NCBI RefSeq assembly: GCF_000006565.2
Contig: NC_031475.1
Coordinates: forward strand, 62,001 to 126,000
DNA length: 64,000 nt
DNA from: Toxoplasma gondii ME49
Taxonomy: Eukaryota; Apicomplexa; Conoidasida; Eucoccidiorida; Sarcocystidae
Direction of reading: 5' to 3'
The notes beneath the pieces were generated by a model. It ran no database searches. It was not told the origin of the DNA and saw only the letters and a program-made list of their open reading frames with translations. Made by a program: the position numbers and the translations under genes. Every line of letters begins with the position of its first letter. The stretch's first letter is position 1. Shown here piece by piece: positions 23,095-35,300 of this stretch.

Positions 23095-26000
23095 TTACTT
23101 CTTCGGCGTCTCTCTAGGGCTCGAGCCTATCGCGTGTGACTCTACAGCCGAGACGACATTCGAGGCCAGCAATTCCTCCAGAATCGACTGCTCCCTCTTG
23201 AAGACTCCTCGGAAGGCCTCTGTTCTAAGCAGAGGAACTTCTAGCACCTTCATGACGATATTGTGGCGTTTCTCTCGCACACCCCCATGCCTTTCTCCCT
23301 CTTCTCCTGTCGGTGTGTCCTTCTCGTTCTCTTTTACCTTGTCCTCGAGGCTTGTTCCCGGTCCCCCGTCCTTCGTGGCGCTTACGCCCTCGATGTCTCC
23401 GGCCACTGGCCGCACCTCGCCTTCGCCGGCGGGTTCCCTCAACAAAGGGATTGTCGAGGCATTTGGTGGAAAAGAAGAAGAGAGAGAAGGAGAATGAAGA
23501 GGAGATGAAGAAGAGGGAGACTTAGCGGAAGAAGCAGAGGCTTGCGTTGCATCTTCTTGGTTTCCGTTGTCCGTTGCGGCTCCTTTGAGGGAGTCCTTGA
23601 GCGCAGCGAAGTCGACAGAGACTCCCCTCTCCCACAGGAGGTTCACCAGTTCCATATTTTTTCCTTCTTCTCTCGTTAGAAGAACAAGGACGCGAACTTT
23701 CTCATTTGAGCGCTGGAACTGATCTTTGTCCCTGGATCCTCTGTTCCCGTGTCCCGCATCTCTCTCTCCTTCGCTGCCGCATCTTGCACTCTCCTCGCAG
23801 CAGACCTTCCTTCGCTTCTTCTTCTCTTCTTCCACGTGATTCTCGATCGCCCGAAACAGCGTTTCCGTCCATCCAGCGAGACCAGGCTGTGCGGCCGCAA
23901 CGACCTTCGCGAATCCTAGGGCCAGATGGACGAGAAAGGCATCGAGGGAAGAAGACTGCTCTCAGTGAATCTGCTTTCACCCAACGGTTTGCATAGATAT
24001 GTACACATATACAAGTGAAGGCACACGTAGTCAGCCGATGATGGGAAAAGGCAATCACGCGTGTCCAAGCAAACACGAATGAGACAGAGGAGAACAGCAG
24101 AAAGACAAGAAGACGCAGGAACATATTTCCAAGTAAAACCGAGTGGGACACGCGAGGAAAGGGACTTCTACGCGTGTCCAAGTAGGCGCGAATCACACAA
24201 ATCGTGGACTAAAACCTGGTAGTAAAAAACGGCCCCGTGCACCTGCTCACTTCTGTTGCTTCAATAAATACGTCACGTGTTTCCAATTGTATCAAACTGT
24301 GGGAGTATGTAACTCAGCACCAAGGCGAAGCGCAACTGACTCGGAACTGGGGGACCTTGCTCTCCAGAGAATCTCCCCCACACTTGAAAAAGGGCTCCGA
24401 AAGAAGCTGCGAAAAACCGAACGGATTTTCCTTCTCTCCCGTCCATCGCCTTACCTGCGTGGCGAGCGGCGGCGGCAGTCGTGGGGCCGATCGCGAGAGC
24501 CACGAGTTTCTGTGTTTCTTTTCTCCGCCTCTTCTCTGCTTCGCGTCCCTCCATCACGCTGTTCCTGCACTCTTCAAGCAGGCGCATTAAGTCAGCTTCT
24601 GTCGACAGCAAGTGGCTGGCTGCCTTACGAGGCTGACCCGATCCCTCACGGGCCGAAGGCGAGAGCTCGAGAGGCGCCTGTGAGCAAGTGGGAGACGCCG
24701 GAGAAGCAGCGGCAGAGGAAGAAGACGAACGAGAAGAGGACTTCTTCCTGGGGAGAGAGTCCACGACGATTTGCTTGGCCCCGGCGTGGATGGCCGTGTA
24801 AGAAGGAAGAACAGGAGCGTCGAGAGTCGAGTGCTCTAGAGGAAGCCCGTTTGCAACCCAGCTCCAGACTGCTGAAGGACTCGCTAGCATGACAAAGGCT
24901 ACAGTTACTTTTGCGTCTTGTCCGTCCTCTCCTTTCTCCTCCCCCTCTTGAGTCTGCGCTTCTATCCCATCCCGACCGCCTTCTAAGAGCTGCCGTTGCC
25001 CCGCCCCTTCTGTCTTCCCGCTCTCTGTCTCGGAGGCTTGTGCTTTTTCTTCTTTCCTCGTCTCGACAGTCGCGCGCGCGGCCGCCGTGCGTGGTGTATC
25101 TGCAGGTTCCGCGCTCTTTTCACGTTTCAACAAAGCCTCCCTGAGAGTCGCAAGTAACGCCTGCCTCTCTTCCAGTGCCAGCATCCTCTGCGTGGTGGTG
25201 TAAATGTTCAAGCGCTGAAGGCGGAAGAGCGGCAGCGAAGTCCACGAAGCGGTTTCACTTCTCGCTTCCTTTTCACGCGCTTCTGTGCCTCCGAAAACGT
25301 CATTCACTGCTCTGGCTGCAGTCTGGCCTTCCTTCCCATGTTCGGGCGCATCGCGTGTTTTGGGGTGTATCTCCTCTGGTGTGCGAGACGAAAAAGCCAC
25401 GTCGTTGTGGTCTGACAACGACACGCGCGTTCGAGACGACACACTCGGAAGTACGGTTCCATGGAAAGACGCTTTTTGCACATCGCCACATGAGCTCTTG
25501 TTGGGGTGTATATACACCGAATCTCCGGGGCTGTCGCCGGAGCTTGGTTGGTCACAGGACCGCGGAGCTGAAGAAACGGACACGTTTTGCGCGCCGAAAA
25601 GCTGTACGACTTCCCTCAGCTTCCGCTCCTCAAAAGTGGTTGCGAGGTCCTCGGATGCTAAAGCCGAAGTCGGCCAAACCACGCGCGTTTGCAGCCAGCA
25701 TGGACAGCAAACGACCGAACGGCGCAGGCCGGGAAGCTCCACTGACACCGCAACGCGCTGAGCTCGGGTGTAGTTACACCAGGGATCAACATGGCCCACA
25801 TCTTCCAACGGGTCAGTGTGTTGTTCAGGCGCGTGAATACACCTCTCGTTGAAAGCGTCAGGGCTGAAACCACCGCGATAGTCGTTGTCGCTTGTCAAAC
25901 ACAGCAAGGAAAGAATTGGGGGACGAGGAGGCAAGTCGGCTGCGAGCCGGGCCGCTGTAGCTACCGAAGGCATCCAGGGCGAGAAGAGACTTTGGATTTC

Positions 26001-27464
26001 ACGCGAAGCGCTTTGTGTCTCATCTGAAACGTTCTGAAAATTGCAATCGAGTTCCCTGCCCTCTCTCCGCCTAGAATCATTCGTCGACCTTTCGCTTGTG
26101 GCCGTTTCTTCTGCATTCAAGTCCAGTTTATGTCCCCGGAATCCATGGCGCTGGCTGGCAGTCCCCGATACACGGTCGTCCCCCTCCACGTTCTGGCTTG
26201 TCTCTTCTTCGCTTTCCCTGGCGTTGTTCTTCCCTTCTAGTGGTCCTCGCCTCGCTTCGTTCGTTGCTGTGTCATCAGCCTTGCCTCGATGGCAACACAA
26301 CCTCTTAAAAACTGCATGCAGTGCCTCCTCAGCAGCGTGGCGAGTGCCGTCTCCGACACATACGATGGACTGGCGGGGCACGCTGTCTAGACACCGGAAC
26401 AGATGAGGAGGAGAAACAGAGGCCGCGGAACATGAGGAAGACTCGCAAGACGGAGGAGAATGAGACGGATAAGAGGGCGGTGTAAGAGATGTAGACGAAG
26501 AAGTAGAAGAGCACGATTGAGATGCGATGGGAAGGAGGAGACAAGTCAGCATGCGTTCCCAACAACGAGCAAACACGCGCGCCGACTCGGGCGACGTCAG
26601 GCACAGATAATCAAACGAAAAGAAGGCGGCAGGACGAGACGCCGAGCGGGGCCATGCCGGACACAATGCAGTGAGGAGAGGCGGAGCCGAGACTGAAGAA
26701 GAGGAGAGAGAACAGGACGCTGAAGCGGCTGACTCCGGAGGCGAGACACTGGGAGACGAATAGAGCGACGATGGAAACGAAGAACGATGAGAGGCTGACG
26801 GCTGGGCTGACGAGAATCGAAAAGAGAAACGCATACGGACAGGCACAGGGACAGCGTGGGCGGGCACGTAGGAGGGCGAGAGAAGTGGCTTCTCCCACCC
26901 GTGGAAGCGAGAGTGCCGGAGACTGCTTGTCCACGCAGGCGCAGGAAAGAGATGCAGACGTGGACGAGGATGTAGAGGGAACGCGCATCGGTCGAAACAG
27001 GAGGCGAATGAAAGAAATGCTGAAAGCGACGGAGAGGCGAAAGAGAGAGAAGCACTTGAGGGGGCAGTGAAGTGACAGCGCGAACGAAGGGGACCGGACA
27101 GAGAGGCAGCTGAGGGCACGAGAGGAGGAGGAAGATGAGGAGCAATCGAAGAAGGAAACAATGTCTTTGACGTCTTTTCTTTGTTTAAGAAGAGAACCGG
27201 CCTGCCTGAAAAACCGACCTGCCCCTGGCTGAGGTGTGCGGGCGACGGAAAAAAGGCGTCGACGGAGAGGGTACTCGCGCGGACAGAGAAGATACCAGCA
27301 TGGGGTGCGATGAAGGCCGGAAAAGAAAAGAGAAGAAGAGCAAACGAAGCATACGCGGAGACAGCTCGGCTTCTACGAGGCAAGAGCGAACTAGAGCAGA
27401 TGAAGGAAAAAAAGCAGAGGACTCTGTCGACGAGAAAGAGGGGAAGGAGAGGGCAAGCGGCCAT
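23095..27464 (-). CDS. UROS: Uroporphyrinogen-III synthase, circularly permuted
   Basis: UROS (HemD) cyclises hydroxymethylbilane to uroporphyrinogen III in heme synthesis. Exon 1 is 24455-27464 (ATG, MAACPLLPLF); exon 2 is 23095-23915. The junction is gca-g|ga-ttc (donor GTAAGG, acceptor CCTAG), giving 1,276 residues against about 260 usual. UROS blocks in order: DYLCLTSPESA (about residue 282), IVCVGDGT (366), VVWPTSALASEDL (594), FVMLASPSAVW (857), ALAIGPTTAAA (990), then in exon 2 VVAAAQPGLAGWTETLFRAI (1007-1027). After a charged linker come RVLVLLTREEGKNMELVNLL (about 1075) and VLEVPLLRTEA (about 1225), which normally begin the protein. The order is therefore circularly permuted. Residues 1-60 include a hydrophobic stretch (FALLLFSFPAFIA) followed by Ser/Arg-rich sequence, like an apicoplast bipartite leader. 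The adjacent enzymes are apicoplast-located in Toxoplasma, so that site is expected. Confidence 0.85.
23200..23710 (-). other. Relocated UROS strand 1-helix 1-strand 2 segment
   Basis: This part of exon 2 encodes TREEGKNMELVNLLWERGVS, matching the opening beta-strand and helix of ordinary HemD (VLxTRPEGxNxELxxLLxxxG). A Ser/Glu-rich insertion of about 110 residues follows, then VLEVPLLRTEA, matching the second strand (ELPLIxT). In ordinary HemD these precede the DxxxFTSPxAV block; here they are the last conserved elements. They are joined to the normal C-terminal helix by open frame with no stop or required splice. Confidence 0.85.
25505..25518. repeat. Perfect 14-bp palindrome GGTGTATATACACC in UROS exon 1
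   Basis: One of several GGTGTA-NN-TACACC type words inside exons in this window. Others: 25767-25780 (UROS), 35047-35060 and, with changes, 31979-31992 and 31612-31625 (PUS7), and 3553-3566 (CSN1-like, GGCGTATGTACACC). It is read as VYIHP here but in other frames elsewhere. Confidence 0.8.
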
Positions 27465-29357
27465 GTCGGAAGAGTTGATTTCTGTGAAAAGGAGAGACCT
27501 TTGTGCACAGGAAACGCCTCAGGAGGTGGAAAAGAACACAGGTGAGAGGGAAAAGGGTGAAAGGAGAAGGACAAAGGAAAGGGGGAGGCGAGGAAGCGGG
27601 CATCACGATTTTAGAGCAGTTGACAAAGATTGACAAACCTAGCACTTACTAACTAGCTTGAATCATGAGTTAAACGCCGTGACATAGCACAGAAGTTGCG
27701 GACAAGCGGCGAAAACAGTACAAAGTGAGAGAATGAGGACGAACAGGCGATCTTACGACCAAGTGGGGACTTCTTGAGACCACGCGAGCAGGGAATGTCC
27801 AGCAGAGAAGGCGCGGCGAAAAGAGTGAAAGACAGAAAGAAGACAAGACGACTGAAGGAGACGGACTTTGGATAAGATGAGGACCAAGAAATGCCTGCTC
27901 ACAGGCCAAGTCGGATGTCGGTCGCTTGCGGAATACCGTGACCAACAGTGCCGGAGAAAGTCGAAAAACGGTTGCCAAGCCAGCCAGAGTGAGATACAGC
28001 GAAGTGTGACAAGCAGCCAACGCCGACAGTGGAAGAAAACCAGAGAAAAGGCGACGACGAGTCAACATGATCTACATGCAGCAGAAGGGAAACTTGTTTT
28101 TCCACAGGACACTCCATACACCGCATGTGAGTACGGAGAAAACGAGGCGCCGCCGCTTCCTGGGGGGTTGGAAGAGACAGGAGACACGAACACACTAGCG
28201 AAGCGAGAATCGCGAGAAACCGAGAATCTGCTGCTTTGGCAAGAGAAGAATTTTCTGGAAAAGAATGGCGAGAAAAGCGACTCATGGCAACAGTCAATGG
28301 CGAGACGAGACAGGGAAGACAGACACTTGAGAGCTGTACGGCGGCAATATCTCCGGCGTCGATACACCAGGGAGACGCGCTTTTCTTTGCATGTGCATGC
28401 GCTAGAAGCTTTCGGAAGAACTCAGATATTTTTTTCGTATTTTTCCGTTTATTCGCAATGTACGTTTTTTTCTCTCAGTCTCCCGCCTTTTTCCCGGCGA
28501 AAGACGTCGGCATTTGCAATTTAAAGACCACTGCCGCAGGCGGGCCACAACGAATTCCTTGTTTTTTTTGGACGTTCAGAAAAATGAATAAAGAATCAAC
28601 AGAGGTACTCACAGTCGTTTCTCCTCTTCCCACCTCTTCCTAGAAGTCATCCGCATCTGCATTCTGAGCGTCTTTTAAGGACCGTTTCTTTCCCTCGTTT
28701 ATCCGCTGAGCAAGAAGCAGCGACTGGAGCCCCTTCGTGGCTAGAAGAGGCCGAGAGGCCTGGGGCAGAAGAAACGCGTCTGTTCTTCGCTCACGAATCT
28801 CTGAACGAGTCCGAAATGACAGCCACATGAAGACGCCGACACAAGAACGAAAAGGCCCCACCGTGTCTGGACACCCGTGAGATCCGCACAACCCAAAAAC
28901 TTGACAAACTACGAAAGAACAGCAGGCGAGATTCTCCAGGGTTTCGAGTTGGGGCTTGAGGGCACACGCGGCGAAACGGAGGTCGTGCCTTTCCGTTCCC
29001 GGAGCTGGCAACTGTTTTCGAAAAGTCTGTCAATGCACAACATATGCCAGCTTAACCGAATGTGTTGCGGAATCAACCACCCCCCACGAGCAGAGAGACT
29101 GCCGTTCACAAATTTCACCACCAGGCGTCTGTGGGAGTCAGGTGCGTCCTCAATTGAGGTCGCTCGCTCCTGATGAAGCGAACAGGTGCATCGGCAACGC
29201 CTTCACGTGTTTTCTCGTCTCTTCTCCCTTGTCCTCTTCCTCTTCTTTCTCTCCCTTGTCTTTCCTGTCTTCTCCCTCCTCTCCTCGCTTCTTCTCTTCT
29301 TCTGCTTCCTCTCCTCTATCACTTCCTCGTGCTCCTCGCCAGTCTCTGTGGCCCCCC
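27465..29357. promoter_or_regulatory. Divergent intergenic region (UROS/PUS7)
   Basis: UROS (-) and PUS7 (+) start from opposite edges of this 1.9-kb stretch, which should carry both promoters. It contains GAGACG-type words (near 28304 and 28372) and GCATGTGCATGCGC near 28386, motif classes reported as enriched in Toxoplasma promoters. It also has a T8 run near 28563. The longest open frame inside (27868-28524, +) is Lys/Arg-rich without motif support and is not called. The part from 28956 is open in the PUS7 frame but has no ATG. Confidence 0.4.
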
Positions 29358-32300
29358 ATGGAGGTCGACGCGCCCCAGGCTTTTCGTTCCGCGACTTCTA
29401 CAGGTCTGGGCCCCGTTGCGTCCTCCGCCTGGTCGGCTGTTTCGCTTGAGAGTGACTCCCAGAGAGCGAAGCAAGGGACCGAGGAGGGCGCGCTGCTGAG
29501 CCTCTCTGCCTTCTCTCGCCTGGTGGGAATCTCTCAGTTCGTCGCCTCCCATGTGCCCTCCAAACGCGGTTTCGAAGAGACGCAGGCCTCGGGATCGCCG
29601 ACCAGCGCCGCAGGCGATGTGCAGCCCGAGAAACAAAGCCCCAACGAAGGCTCAGACAGGGACGCCTGCGCCGATCACGGCGGATTCTGGGGGTCGGTGA
29701 AGACTCTTTTCGAGGACTTTCAGGTGTACGAACACTCAGAGTTCGACTGCGCATGTCTGCGTAATCAGCGTGCGTGCTCTCGTTGCGTGCCCTCTATCCA
29801 GAAAGCGGAAGCTTCTCATTCTCCCTTGTCGTTTTCTTCGGCTTCTCTCTCTTCCCCGTCTGCCTCTCTGGTGGCCTCAGACGTTTCTCAGAAAGGCGCA
29901 CGCCGTGGCGAAACAGGAAACAACTCCAAGCCACCTGCGAAGGACGAAGGAGGGCCCCGACTTGGACAGCCCTGCGCCTTCGGCTGTTGGTGTCGGGCCT
30001 TTGGAGACTCTTCAGAGGCGGCGCCACTTCGTCTGCCGCTTTTGGTGGACTCCGGACAGCTGAGGAGACAGAGGGAAGCAGAGCAGCTTGCTGAGGCGGG
30101 GGGCTTGCACGTTTCGCCTTCCTTTCGTCTCTGGCGGTGTCGACGCCGAAGTGAAGCCGCAGAGGCACTCGACGGTGTAAGGGAGGCGGGCAGAGAAGCA
30201 GAGTGGGAAGACCGGGGGGACCAGAGAGAAGAGGGAAGGGAAGAAGCAAATGAGGATGAAGACAACAGATCACAGAGTCGGGAATTGAAGGATAACGATG
30301 CCAAGAGGCGAGGAAACCGGCCGTGCGTTTCCGAGTTCGAGACGCAAAATATCGAGGCCTTTGTGCGCGGTGTCGCCTGGTGCGCTGAGGTGTACAGGCA
30401 ATACGTGATCGGTTCACCACGGGATCCAGAAGCGAGCGGTGCTGGGGTTTCCGAGAGAAGCGCCGATTTACTTCACGGACTAAATGAAGAAAAGGACTCG
30501 TGGCTGCAGCAAGCGCGGAGAACAGCGGCCTCAGCCGAGGAAACCCTGTTCACTGTTTCTTCAACTCTGGCGCCGGGGATCTCGTCCACGTTTTCATCTC
30601 TCCCGCAAGCTAAGAATGGGCAGCAAAACATTCCTTACAGCGACCCGTCAAAGGCGCCCTGCTTGTGGCTCCTAGGTGACCTCGCGGGTGTCTTGACAGC
30701 GCACTGGAGAAACGAGTTATCCGGCGTTTCCTCCCAGTCAGTACCTCTCTCCTCTTCCGCATCTCCCTCGGCTTCTCCTTCACTGGTTGAAGTCCAGAAG
30801 GAACTGCGGGGTGCCTTGCATGCGTTTGTTCGCGAGCGTCTGCCCTTCATGGTTTCAGAGTCAACGACGCTCGTCCCCGCGAAGGCAGGAGCTAACGGAG
30901 GGGACAGCGCTGGAGGCGAGCTAAGGGGGCGAGGCCTGAAGCGCGGGAGAGACAGCAATCCTCTCGACGACGACTGCGAAGACCAGGGCCAGTCAGGGGA
31001 GAGAGACGTGGAAGGAGAAGAGAAAAGAACGGGGATTCAAGATGAGGGGCAGAAGGCGCGGGATCAGGACAGACAGGAAAACAACGAGGAGGAACTGAGA
31101 GTACTACAGGGCCTGGAAGCCTCAAATCTGTCACGCCGGATTGCTTTCCTCGCTCGAGCTATTGCTTCCAGAGACGGCAGGGCTGGATTCTCAAAATCAG
31201 AACATCGACAAGAAAATGGAGAAGGATGCGTCCAGAATGGAGGAGGGCAAAACAAAGGCGGAGACGGAAACAAAGGGTCACAGAAAAAAGGGGGGTCTGT
31301 GTGTCGACCGACTTCGAATGGATTGTACGAGTCAGATTTCGCGTCGACTCGCTTCCCTTTCATCTCGATCGCAGCATGCTGGGCCCAACAGCGAGGACAG
31401 ATTCTTCGATTGAAGAAAGAAGTTGAAGAGAATGTGCAGCGGGGAAACTTAGAAGGCAACGGAGGGGGAGTGAATGAACTCGAATTGAAAGAGAGAAGAA
31501 GAAACTGGATCTCCTTGCTCGAGACAGCTGCGAAAAAACCTCCGTGCGTGGTCCTGAAACTGACCCTCAAGCCCCATTGTCGCCGTTTCCTCTTCCCTCC
31601 AGTTCACTTCAGGTGTACAGACACCGCAAGCGGAGATGCGGACCCGTCTGGAAGGAGCGGAGGCGCAGAGCGGAACGGAAGCCAGCGAGGAGGGGTGGGA
31701 GGGAAACCAGAAGTCTCCGTTCAAACCGGCGTTTCTCGAGAAGAGAGAAGAAGGGGCCGAGAGGACATAGAAGAGCTTCTCTTCCGCGGTCCGCGTGCGC
31801 AGCAGTCTGGTTCGGAAAAAGAAGAATTTGACGAAAAACAAACGGAACTGCTTGCTCGCCTCGCTTCCCACCCCGCCCTTCTGGACATCCTATTCGACAC
31901 TTGCCGAGCGTCCGAGGGAACATGCAATTACGCAGCGTCGGGCGGGCCTCAGGGCGGGCGGTGGCCAGCCGACCTCGGGGTGTATCTACACTTCATTCTC
32001 TTGAAAGTAAATCGTGATACATCCAATGCGCTCCACATGATCGGAAGGGGACTGCGTCGACACTGTCAAAGATCCCTCGCCGTCGCTGGCACCAAGGACA
32101 AACGCGGGATCACCGTCCAAAGGTGCTCCGTTCACAAAGTAAGTTGCAAATGCCCTGAGCTTCGTTCGGTATGGGGCCCCGTCCAGTTGATCCACTCACC
32201 CATATATCTGGACATCTACCGATACATATATGTATATATTTGTGTGTCGTTTTGTGTGTTTGTCCACAGCCGTTTCAGCTTTGCACTAAGCAGGAGCATC

Positions 32301-35300
32301 CCTATATATATATATATACTCGTGAGTGTCGGTGTGTGTGTCATAAACCTGTTTTCAGCGGCTGCCCACAGACGCTTTTTCAGTGGTGAACTAGAAATGA
32401 AGCGCAGCGGTGGACACGCTGGACACTTAGTCCACTAAAACCTTTACAGTTATTTCCTCAGACCTACACCCATATTTTCATATGTTCATATATATATATA
32501 TATATCGATTCATTACATCTGAAGGGGTAACTTGGTCGCGAGGAACTGGACCCCTTCAGATGCATACTCGAAAAGAGAGAGCAAAAGTTCCATTCTAATT
32601 TGTGCGTGATAAAACTAAGACGGCGAACGCAGTCTTGTGTCTGATGGACAACCGAAGCGCGTGGCTTCGTTGCTTTTTCAGGTCCTGGCGCCTGCCCTGT
32701 TGAACGCATGCTACCTAGACCATCCGTCCTGGGATTCTAACGTGCACATTGCCCCGCTGGGCCACTTTTCTCGACCTCAACGACTTGGTGCCCTTCTTGG
32801 AAACTCCTTCCAAGTTGTTCTCCGAAATGCTCGTCTTCCACTCTCAGCAACTGGTGCTTCTCTCCCTTCTTCTCTTTCTTCTTCTTTTGACGGAGAGGTT
32901 CCTCCAGGGTTTGTGCCGGTGGCGCTGTGCGACCAGTCCGTGCAGGTCTTGGCGAGCCGAGTGTCTGCGGGTGTGGCGACAATTTCCTCTCGGGGCTTTC
33001 TGAACTATTTCGGTCTCCAGCGCTTCGGCACGCATGCAGTCAGGACGTTCGAGGTCGGCGCAGCTCTGCTGCAGGGCGACTGGAAGGAGGCGGTCGCTCG
33101 AATTCTCGGAAAAAAACACAAGTCGCCCGCAAGGTGGCGGCCATCTTCGTCTGCGAGTGTTCAGACAGGTCCCGCATGCAGCATGGAGAAGAGTGCCACA
33201 GTGGCTTTGGACGCGTGGGACGAGTTGGGGGCAGAGCTGCAGAAAGCGGCTGCTGGAAGAAAAACGGATGGAGGGACACAGGGGGAAGCGAGTGACGAGT
33301 TAGAATCTCAGACGACGAGAGAGGAACTATTAGAGAAAGGCGCATGCATGGAGGATAAGCTGTCGGGAGACTGCCCAGGCGAGGGGGACGGGCGTCACGA
33401 CATAGGAAAAGGTGAAGAGCAAAGGGATAAGGGCAGCGACTCTGAACCGTCCCTGTGGGACATCTTGCAAAAGACGGGAGACCCGCGGGTCGCTCTCGGG
33501 CGCCTCGCGAGGCATCAGCATATCGAGAAAACGCTTCTGTCGTCTCTGTTGATGTCACGGCGAAAAGGGGAGAGTGAGGCAACGGGGGAAACGGGCAGCA
33601 AGTGGTGGGGAGGGGAGATGCGAGAACGTAACAGGAAACGGGCCATGTCAGGGCGAGACAGACACCGTCGAGAATGCGCCGCCCTGGGAACGGCGGCTCG
33701 GGCACAGGCTGACGGCATTTGCGCAGAGGGCAGCGAAATGCAGGTACAGGGAGAAGACCCGGGAAGGGACAAAGGCCATGCAGGTGACGTCGCATCGAAT
33801 GAACAAAAGGAAGTTGTGTCAAATGCGGTCTCGGCAACCGAAGGACAAGTACAAAGAAACGATGAATGCAAACGTGGAAACTGGGTGGACTTTGAAGTGA
33901 AAGACTACTTTCGTGCTCTGCAGGGTATCCCGGCGGACTCGCTCCAGCTGTATGTACATTCGGCACAGAGCGTCCTCTTCAATCACGCATGCACTTGGCG
34001 GTGGAAGGCTCTCGGCGGCAAAGTGTGCGTAGGTGACGTCGTTCGCGTCCGCGCGAGAGGCGACCATCGTTCCACGTTGTCGACCTCCGGCTCGACCTCT
34101 GCCGATTCGTCAAAGCGACGCGAAGCTCGACAAGTAGGGAGGATAACCGAGCTTGACGGTACAGACGACAGATTCCTTTTCGATGAGGGACAGGGCGACG
34201 GTAGCGAGGACGAAGAGGAACCCGATGGACAGACAGTCAAAGTCATTGAGACAGAGGCTGAAGCTGAGCAAGCCTCGATCTACGATTTGGTCTTGCCTCT
34301 CCCGGGCGCAGACATTGTGTACCCGTCCCATATGACAGCGGTCTACAGACAGCTAGCAAGCGATCTTCTGGGACTATCTCTCGACGCCTTCACACCGCCG
34401 AAAGACAGCCTGTGCTTGGAAGCGAGTGGAGGTTCTTCAGACATATTCGAGGGCGACCTCATGCGCGCTGGGAGAGGAGGCAGAAAAGGAGACAGAAAAG
34501 GAGACAGAAGTGGCAGACAGCGAGGGCGCGGGCGTGGGCGTGGCAGAGACGGGCGCTGTGACATGCGCGGCTACGGGGCGGAATCTGCGTGTGGAAATGA
34601 AGACGACTGCAAGGTCCGGACAACCCCCGCAGTGCTTTCGCCGGCTGCCGGGCTTTCGATTTTAGGCGTAAAGTACAAAGGAAGTTACAGATCTCTGCTG
34701 GAACGTGCCAGAGACTGCCAATGGCAACTGCTTCAGATCAGCGAAGAAGCGGTACGAACCCCTACTTCTTTGCTACTCTCGGATGTCGACCTGCTTCTGC
34801 AGAAGCAGCCACGCGAGTCCCCGTACTCTCGGTCAGCCGATAAAGCTGCGACAGGTCCAAACCCGGGAAGAAGAAGCGAATGTACCGGACGCGAAGTTGT
34901 CGGTGAGGTCGAAATGACAGAAAACGAAACGCACGAAAAGGATCAAGCGAAGGAAAGCGGATGCACGAAGAGTATGGACAGCCGGTCCTATGCGGAACAA
35001 GATTTCCGAGTTTCTTGGGATGAACCTCTCGACAGCACGCTGGTCAGGTGTATGTACACCAGAGATGAGCAGCTTCAAATGATGGAACAAGGGGAGAAGG
35101 TGCAGGGTCAAATCGACGGGTTTGGGTCGCGAATAGAAAGAAATCGGATTGTAGTTAGGGACGGAAAAAGCAATTTTTGCCTTCTTTTGAGACTGCGACT
35201 GCCTCCCGGCACATATTTCACCATGGCACTTCGTGAACTCATGAGAACGAATGCCCCTGATGATGACGAGCTAGCCCATGCTGCCGCTCGGGCCTTCGTT

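Follow-up and report, generated by a model that had tools for sequence, protein, structure and literature searches.

A naturally circularly permuted, probable uroporphyrinogen-III synthase in Toxoplasma gondii and related coccidia

Does the order of conserved blocks in a gene of Toxoplasma gondii ME49 reflect a real rearrangement of uroporphyrinogen-III synthase (UROS)? The gene lies on the minus strand of the window, i.e. the whole stretch of 64,000 nucleotides that was analysed (contig NC_031475.1, positions 62,001 to 126,000), and the blocks that normally open UROS stand at the end of its protein. The results support a natural circular permutation of UROS that is conserved in coccidia. The spliced product is identical in 1275 of 1276 residues to the public T. 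gondii protein TGARI_264200 (here P0001), which is named hypothetical or “Uroporphyrinogen-III synthase”, depending on the source. The gene is organised as follows:

27464-24455 and 23915-23095, minus strand: UROS gene, exons 1 and 2 joined over a GT..AG intron to 1276 amino acids
24455..27464, minus strand: exon 1, with a putative N-terminal leader, the whole of lobe A (equivalent to human domain 2), the linker strand and, as far as IGPTTAAAARHA, the beginning of lobe B, from the splice model and the match to P0001
23916..24454, minus strand: intron GTAAGG...CCCTAG, which falls between HAG and FAKVV of the last canonical block, in agreement with P0001
23095..23915, minus strand: exon 2, a single open frame in which the canonical C-terminal block ends and the canonical N-terminal block then follows

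Along the 1276 amino acids the blocks follow each other in the order TSPE, VGxGT, WPTSAL, NIYTT, SPSAV and IGPTT...GWTETLFRAI, and then TREEGKN and EVPLLRTE:

26559..26615, minus strand, residues 284-302: FDYLCLTSPESARVFARCW, strand that opens the core of the permuted enzyme, beginning near human residue 54-56
26319..26366, minus strand, residues 367-382: IVCVGDGTRHAAEEAL, VGxGT motif, its Thr aligned to human Thr103
Residues 499-512: PSVATAARLAADLP, a core block of the protein
25617..25688, minus strand, residues 593-616: TRVVWPTSALASEDL... / TRVVWPTSALASEDLATTFEERKL, beginning of the last part of lobe A
25179..25214, minus strand, residues 751-762: RLNIYTTTQRML, linker strand, its Tyr aligned to human Tyr168
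24837..24902, minus strand, residues 855-876: VAFVMLASPSAVWSWV... / VAFVMLASPSAVWSWVANGLPL, first strand-helix of lobe B, its Ser aligned to human Ser197
23845..24506 with the intron within, minus strand, residues 987-1027: LVALAIGPTTAAAARHAG and FAKVVAAAQPGLAGWTETLFRAI, canonical C-terminal block
23608..23697, minus strand, residues 1077-1106: VRVLVLLTREEGKNMELVNLLWERGVSVDF, canonical N-terminal strand-helix, relocated to the C-terminus
23206..23253, minus strand, residues 1225-1240: MKVLEVPLLRTEAFRG, canonical second strand (linker strand, human 32-38), relocated to the C-terminus

In the alignment with human UROS, TREEGKN corresponds to residues 7-13 and EVPLLRT to residues 32-38, i.e. VRVLVLLTREEGKNMELVNLLWERGVSVDF and MKVLEVPLLRTEAFRG, the last two blocks here, open the canonical enzyme. 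The sequence-only reading had placed these opening blocks behind the C-terminal helix of one gene and within one uninterrupted exon; the block positions in the spliced protein, the match to P0001 and the single open frame 23095-23915 bear out both points. Because the TRE and EVPLLRTE blocks share this exon with AGWTETLFRAI in one frame, the order is independent of splicing, which is ruled out as its creator. The canonical linear order is absent, the first block being C-terminal, and the protein is therefore a permuted variant of UROS and not an ordinary member.

The arrangement is not confined to T. gondii. The protein searches scored only about 8000 candidates sharing most words with the query, so that further relatives may be missed. 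Among these candidates, the TRE block lies behind the C-terminal block in six proteins, from T. gondii, Hammondia, Neospora, Besnoitia and Cystoisospora, and in P0006 (603 amino acids), which has 27-32% identity to the other five. When T. gondii is compared with Neospora, 24/30 and 25/30 positions of the moved blocks are identical, against 8/26 and 43/106 in the adjoining inserts, and the diverged P0006 retains TREASKN and VPCVRT. Three of the six models (P0002, P0003 and P0005) are truncated, each without one or another part. The public models of Hammondia (P0002) and Cystoisospora (P0005) stop before EVPLLRTE, and that of Neospora (P0003) begins after the first blocks of lobe A. The sequence-only reading had proposed to look for the same order in Neospora, Eimeria and chromerids. 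Neospora has this order; only Sarcocystidae and P0006 were returned among the candidates scored, and no protein of Plasmodium, Eimeria or chromerids.

A permutation-aware alignment to a HemD-type profile, which had been proposed as a check, was performed with an insert-free coccidian core profile of three rows (A4; the truncated models were excluded) and a canonical profile of 21 rows, derived from bacterial, algal, human and E. coli UROS. With hhalign, the core in natural order had a score of 153.1 and covered template columns 66-265. The core was then rotated four columns at a time, giving 94 rotations; the best of these reached 178.7 and covered columns 14-264, so that the strand-helix blocks of both lobes are all present in rotated order; the maximum lies where the TRE block starts. 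Shuffling the tail columns 300 times gave a mean of 153.0 (standard deviation 1.3, maximum 158.7), and none of the shuffles reached 177.9; in 14 of the 300 the alignment began no later than template column 30. The best alignment is thus obtained only after relocation of one terminal piece, with a single junction peak. The rotated core also aligned over 251 columns (expectation value, E, 3.7e-26) to a second canonical set, A7, which overlaps the first: it contains 23 of the same 33 bacterial loci, 15 of which were kept after a length filter for the canonical hidden Markov model, together with the algal proteins P0007 and P0008. An insert-masked profile in natural order (A2) aligned to A7 over only the C-terminal 45 columns (90%).

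The TRE block alone matched template columns 14-62 (60% probability, E 9e-5), and the unedited tails of five proteins together matched columns 14-45 (43%, E 2e-4). The unedited N-terminal extensions, i.e. those of P0001, P0002, P0004 and P0005 together and that of P0006, had no match to the canonical profile (0.1-0.2%, E 0.3-0.5). Because the tails match the template start and the extensions match nothing, the block was moved and not duplicated, and an additional canonical block at the N-terminus was rejected. Two results are weaker: the tail of P0006 alone gave a weak match (columns 14-39, 2%, E 0.02), and a rotation scan of single sequences with hmmsearch had a clean junction peak in only one of three cores. 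For unedited full-length proteins, rotation brought no useful gain with hmmsearch; the summed full-sequence scan is uninformative, because domain scores add regardless of order. The rotation peak, the shuffles, the single open frame and the order kept in coccidia together uphold a real permutation rather than an artefact of the gene model.

The sequence-only reading had also suggested that the permutation explains why UROS is hard to find by profile searches in apicomplexans. Pfam HEM4 recognises P0001 with 28.4 bits (cut-off 27.5) over model positions 191-230 of 231 (residues 980-1020), leaving about 250 residues beyond the domain end. The canonical C-terminal block (LVALAIGPTTAAAARHAG and FAKVVAAAQPGLAGWTETLFRAI) is the sole part recognised in the unedited T. 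gondii protein. Thus the curated sequence cut-off is passed, as it is by four of five proteins over about model positions 191-230 only, P0003 lying below it with 26.7 bits; P0006 scores 37.9 bits. Removal of the inserts in natural order raised the scores from 28.4 to 57.7 bits for P0001 and from 33.7 to 52.8 bits for P0004, and undoing the permutation on the insert-free cores added 2.1 bits (59.8) and 10.6 bits (63.4), respectively. Because insert removal has the larger effect, the inserts hide UROS more than the order does; the permutation was rejected as the chief reason for poor scores and retained as a source of a small gain. The first strand is also missing from the Pfam model, and P0001 owes some of its natural-order score to lobe B and the moved block (251-345), which align to positions 61-150 in the lobe A portion of the model. 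The inserts within both exons (24455-27464 and 23095-23915) are long and of low complexity, total several hundred residues and stand between most pairs of core blocks. Those of P0006 are short, indicating insert growth in Sarcocystidae or shrinkage in the lineage of P0006.

What does the relocation do to the fold? According to Mathews et al. 2001, residues 1-35 and 173-260 of human UROS reportedly form domain 1, and residues 53-155 form domain 2. With these limits, both domains become contiguous, because the cut lies near human residue 54 and the old ends are joined, in line with the proposal that relocation makes the discontinuous lobe contiguous. An end-to-end alignment of the two lobes of canonical UROS (109 columns, score 123.0) requires the first block to be placed after the last; left in canonical order, the lobes have 67 columns in common (score 88.6). 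The coccidian protein therefore represents a plain head-to-tail order of homologous lobes. A repeat test of lobe A against lobe B with the three-row coccidian profile, which is too shallow, gave 10% probability and no end-to-end alignment. A HemD-like two-lobed fold was found in the predicted model of one homolog, P0006, the best structural matches of which are the UROS/HemD structures 1jr2, 3re1, 4es6 and 3d8r. For the 969 amino acids of P0004, AlphaFold2 gave a pLDDT (predicted local distance difference test) of 36, and a direct search of P0004 against PDB sequences returned no UROS match.

The nearest relatives among the canonical sequences compared are algal. Among the matches listed for the rotated profile, Pleodorina starrii (P0007, E 8e-15) and Prymnesium (P0008, E 8e-8) have the canonical order; next are three proteins that combine PBGD and HEM4 domains, taken as bacterial (E 0.13 to 5.9). 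Each of the three coccidian cores has P0007 and P0008 as its best matches among 26 canonical sequences (54.1, 32.2 and 32.1 bits for P0007). A bacterial genome scan with both yielded two distant loci only. These plastid-type enzymes share LLTRExGKN, TSPE(A/S)AS, VGxGT, SPSAV and IGxT with the coccidian proteins, and P0007 also INxYxT. P0007 has 292 amino acids in canonical order, whereas the coccidian proteins start with lobe A, carry the first block last and, except for P0006, have long inserts. Because the algal proteins share LLTRExGKN and match all cores best, the coccidian enzyme is of the plastid type, and the permutation is most likely derived. Chromera UROS is described as longer at the N-terminus than its bacterial homologs (PMC8233740), which hints at an ordinary order there.

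Human T103, Y168, S197, T227 and T228, which we take to be important active-site positions, all have identical counterparts in P0001 and P0006 (five of five positions checked), and the permuted protein is likely to be an active UROS. In passages of published work, TGGT1_264200 is assigned to the apicoplast by localisation of organelle proteins by isotope tagging (LOPIT) and is reduced on apicoplast loss (PMC11873192), and porphobilinogen deaminase, UROS and uroporphyrinogen decarboxylase (UROD) are placed in the apicoplast (PMC13229292).

Could an ordinary UROS gene elsewhere in the genome perform the pathway step, the permuted paralog having either ceased to be a UROS or serving as a minor second one? 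Two papers speak for this: one study, which also weighs against activity of the permuted protein, deletes a gene called UROS and separately lists TGGT1_264200 as a hypothetical apicoplast protein (PMC11873192), and in another TgUROS was tagged with no identifier in the main-text passages (PMC7252677). The five motif positions are kept, however, and conservation is higher within the blocks than around them. When the T. gondii genome was searched with PF02602, human UROS, P0006, P0007, P0008 and bacterial HemD, no second, canonical UROS came up, although these searches are insensitive: P0006, a true homolog, also misses the gene in the window, while P0004 finds both exons (exon 1 at C9:86447-88762) and nothing else. 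One DNA motif scan gave 165 places versus 183 in the reversed-pattern control, and another 125 versus 49, an enrichment that may be due to composition. A TREAGKN match on contig 12 had, on close examination, no UROS frame and was rejected. On balance, we regard a paralog as improbable.

Far less probable still is a UROS that lost its first strand-helix-strand and carries TRE and EVPLLRTE as chance look-alikes. Long, low-complexity inserts do make chance matches possible, no more than about 25 of the 179 score units come from the TRE block, and the tail of P0006 is weak by itself; but no shuffle reproduced the score, the block alone finds the template start, and it is kept in six proteins, with an identity far above that of the adjoining inserts and with TREASKN and VPCVRT in P0006. 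That a gene-model or assembly artefact joined the exon of a neighbouring gene is the least credible explanation: the incomplete models P0002, P0003 and P0005 would fit it, but the C-terminal and the moved block share one open frame, and the records of T. gondii, Neospora and Besnoitia agree on the order.

From the block order, homology, conservation, rotation peak and predicted fold of one homolog, and with the apicoplast association taken from the literature, we consider it highly probable that a plastid-type UROS was circularly permuted in a coccidian ancestor and most likely still acts in the apicoplast heme pathway. The first ~54 residues (human numbering) of an algal-type enzyme would have been moved behind the former C-terminus, presumably by tandem gene duplication and subsequent truncation of both ends at the lobe boundary. 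The resulting order would be a contiguous lobe A, a linker, a now contiguous lobe B and a linker strand, with long low-complexity inserts in the loops and an N-terminal leader that may serve apicoplast import. Most likely, the enzyme would close hydroxymethylbilane with inversion of the D-ring to uroporphyrinogen III, between porphobilinogen deaminase and UROD.

Natural circular permutations of core metabolic enzymes are, to our knowledge, rare, and we know of none for a heme-pathway enzyme. No report of a circularly permuted UROS was found in the open-licence literature, a scope outside which most subscription journals lie. The permuted protein is a concrete candidate for the apicoplast UROS step, its restored tandem order of lobes offers a natural test of an origin of the UROS fold by duplication, and its block boundaries are precise enough for activity and structure to be tested directly. 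For further relatives, the search recipe is to cut the inserts and then to rotate. According to passages of a 2020 paper, Plasmodium UROS was not found by sequence alignment, a low-similarity candidate had been proposed earlier, and Plasmodium PBGD has UROS activity (PMC7252677). A wider proposal, which we hold only tentatively and think rather unlikely, is that apicomplexan parasites, Plasmodium among them, would have inherited the permuted order from their ancestor and would have no other UROS in their apicoplast heme pathway; the cut at the lobe boundary would restore, from an interlocked enzyme, a head-to-tail repeat of two self-contained lobes and, together with the long loop inserts, would explain why the step has been missed or disputed.

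Some further features were observed. By eye, the N-terminus of the T. gondii protein (27464 downwards) has a hydrophobic start followed by ~280 Ser-rich residues with few acidic ones, resembling an apicoplast leader, and that of P0006 resembles a signal peptide. P0006 has ~35 extra residues (~430-464) at the T. gondii intron site, between IGETTAAAAR and GFQKVV; perhaps the gene model has kept an unspliced intron here, in which case the position of the intron would be conserved. The divergent neighbouring gene (28905-32438, plus strand) has a large open frame that presumably continues into further exons; at its end, residues 1023-1081 align to positions 41-98 of the 412 in the model of TruD tRNA pseudouridine synthase (PF01142) with 30.5 bits.

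The HEM4/HemD proteins of bacteria and animals (1jr2, 3re1, 4es6, 3d8r) have the two-lobed fold in common with the P0006 model. The coccidian UROS differs from them in that the bacterial and animal proteins carry the first strand-helix-strand at the N-terminus and have, with the domain limits given above, a discontinuous lobe 1. Segment swap, duplication and fusion are named as a path in passages of one of two papers (PMC8250049 or PMC9815098). The short protein cU3Sd (PDB 6th8) matches the second half of UROS. It is presumably a designed construct from the fold-origin work of Toledo-Patino et al. 2019. In both cases UROS is handled as duplicated flavodoxin-like lobes that are open to rearrangement, but cU3Sd is a laboratory construct, whereas the coccidian UROS is a natural, full-length permuted enzyme. 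Natural circular permutations are known from concanavalin A and saposin-like plant proteins, usually accounted for by duplication and truncation, and they represent the same type of event in other folds.

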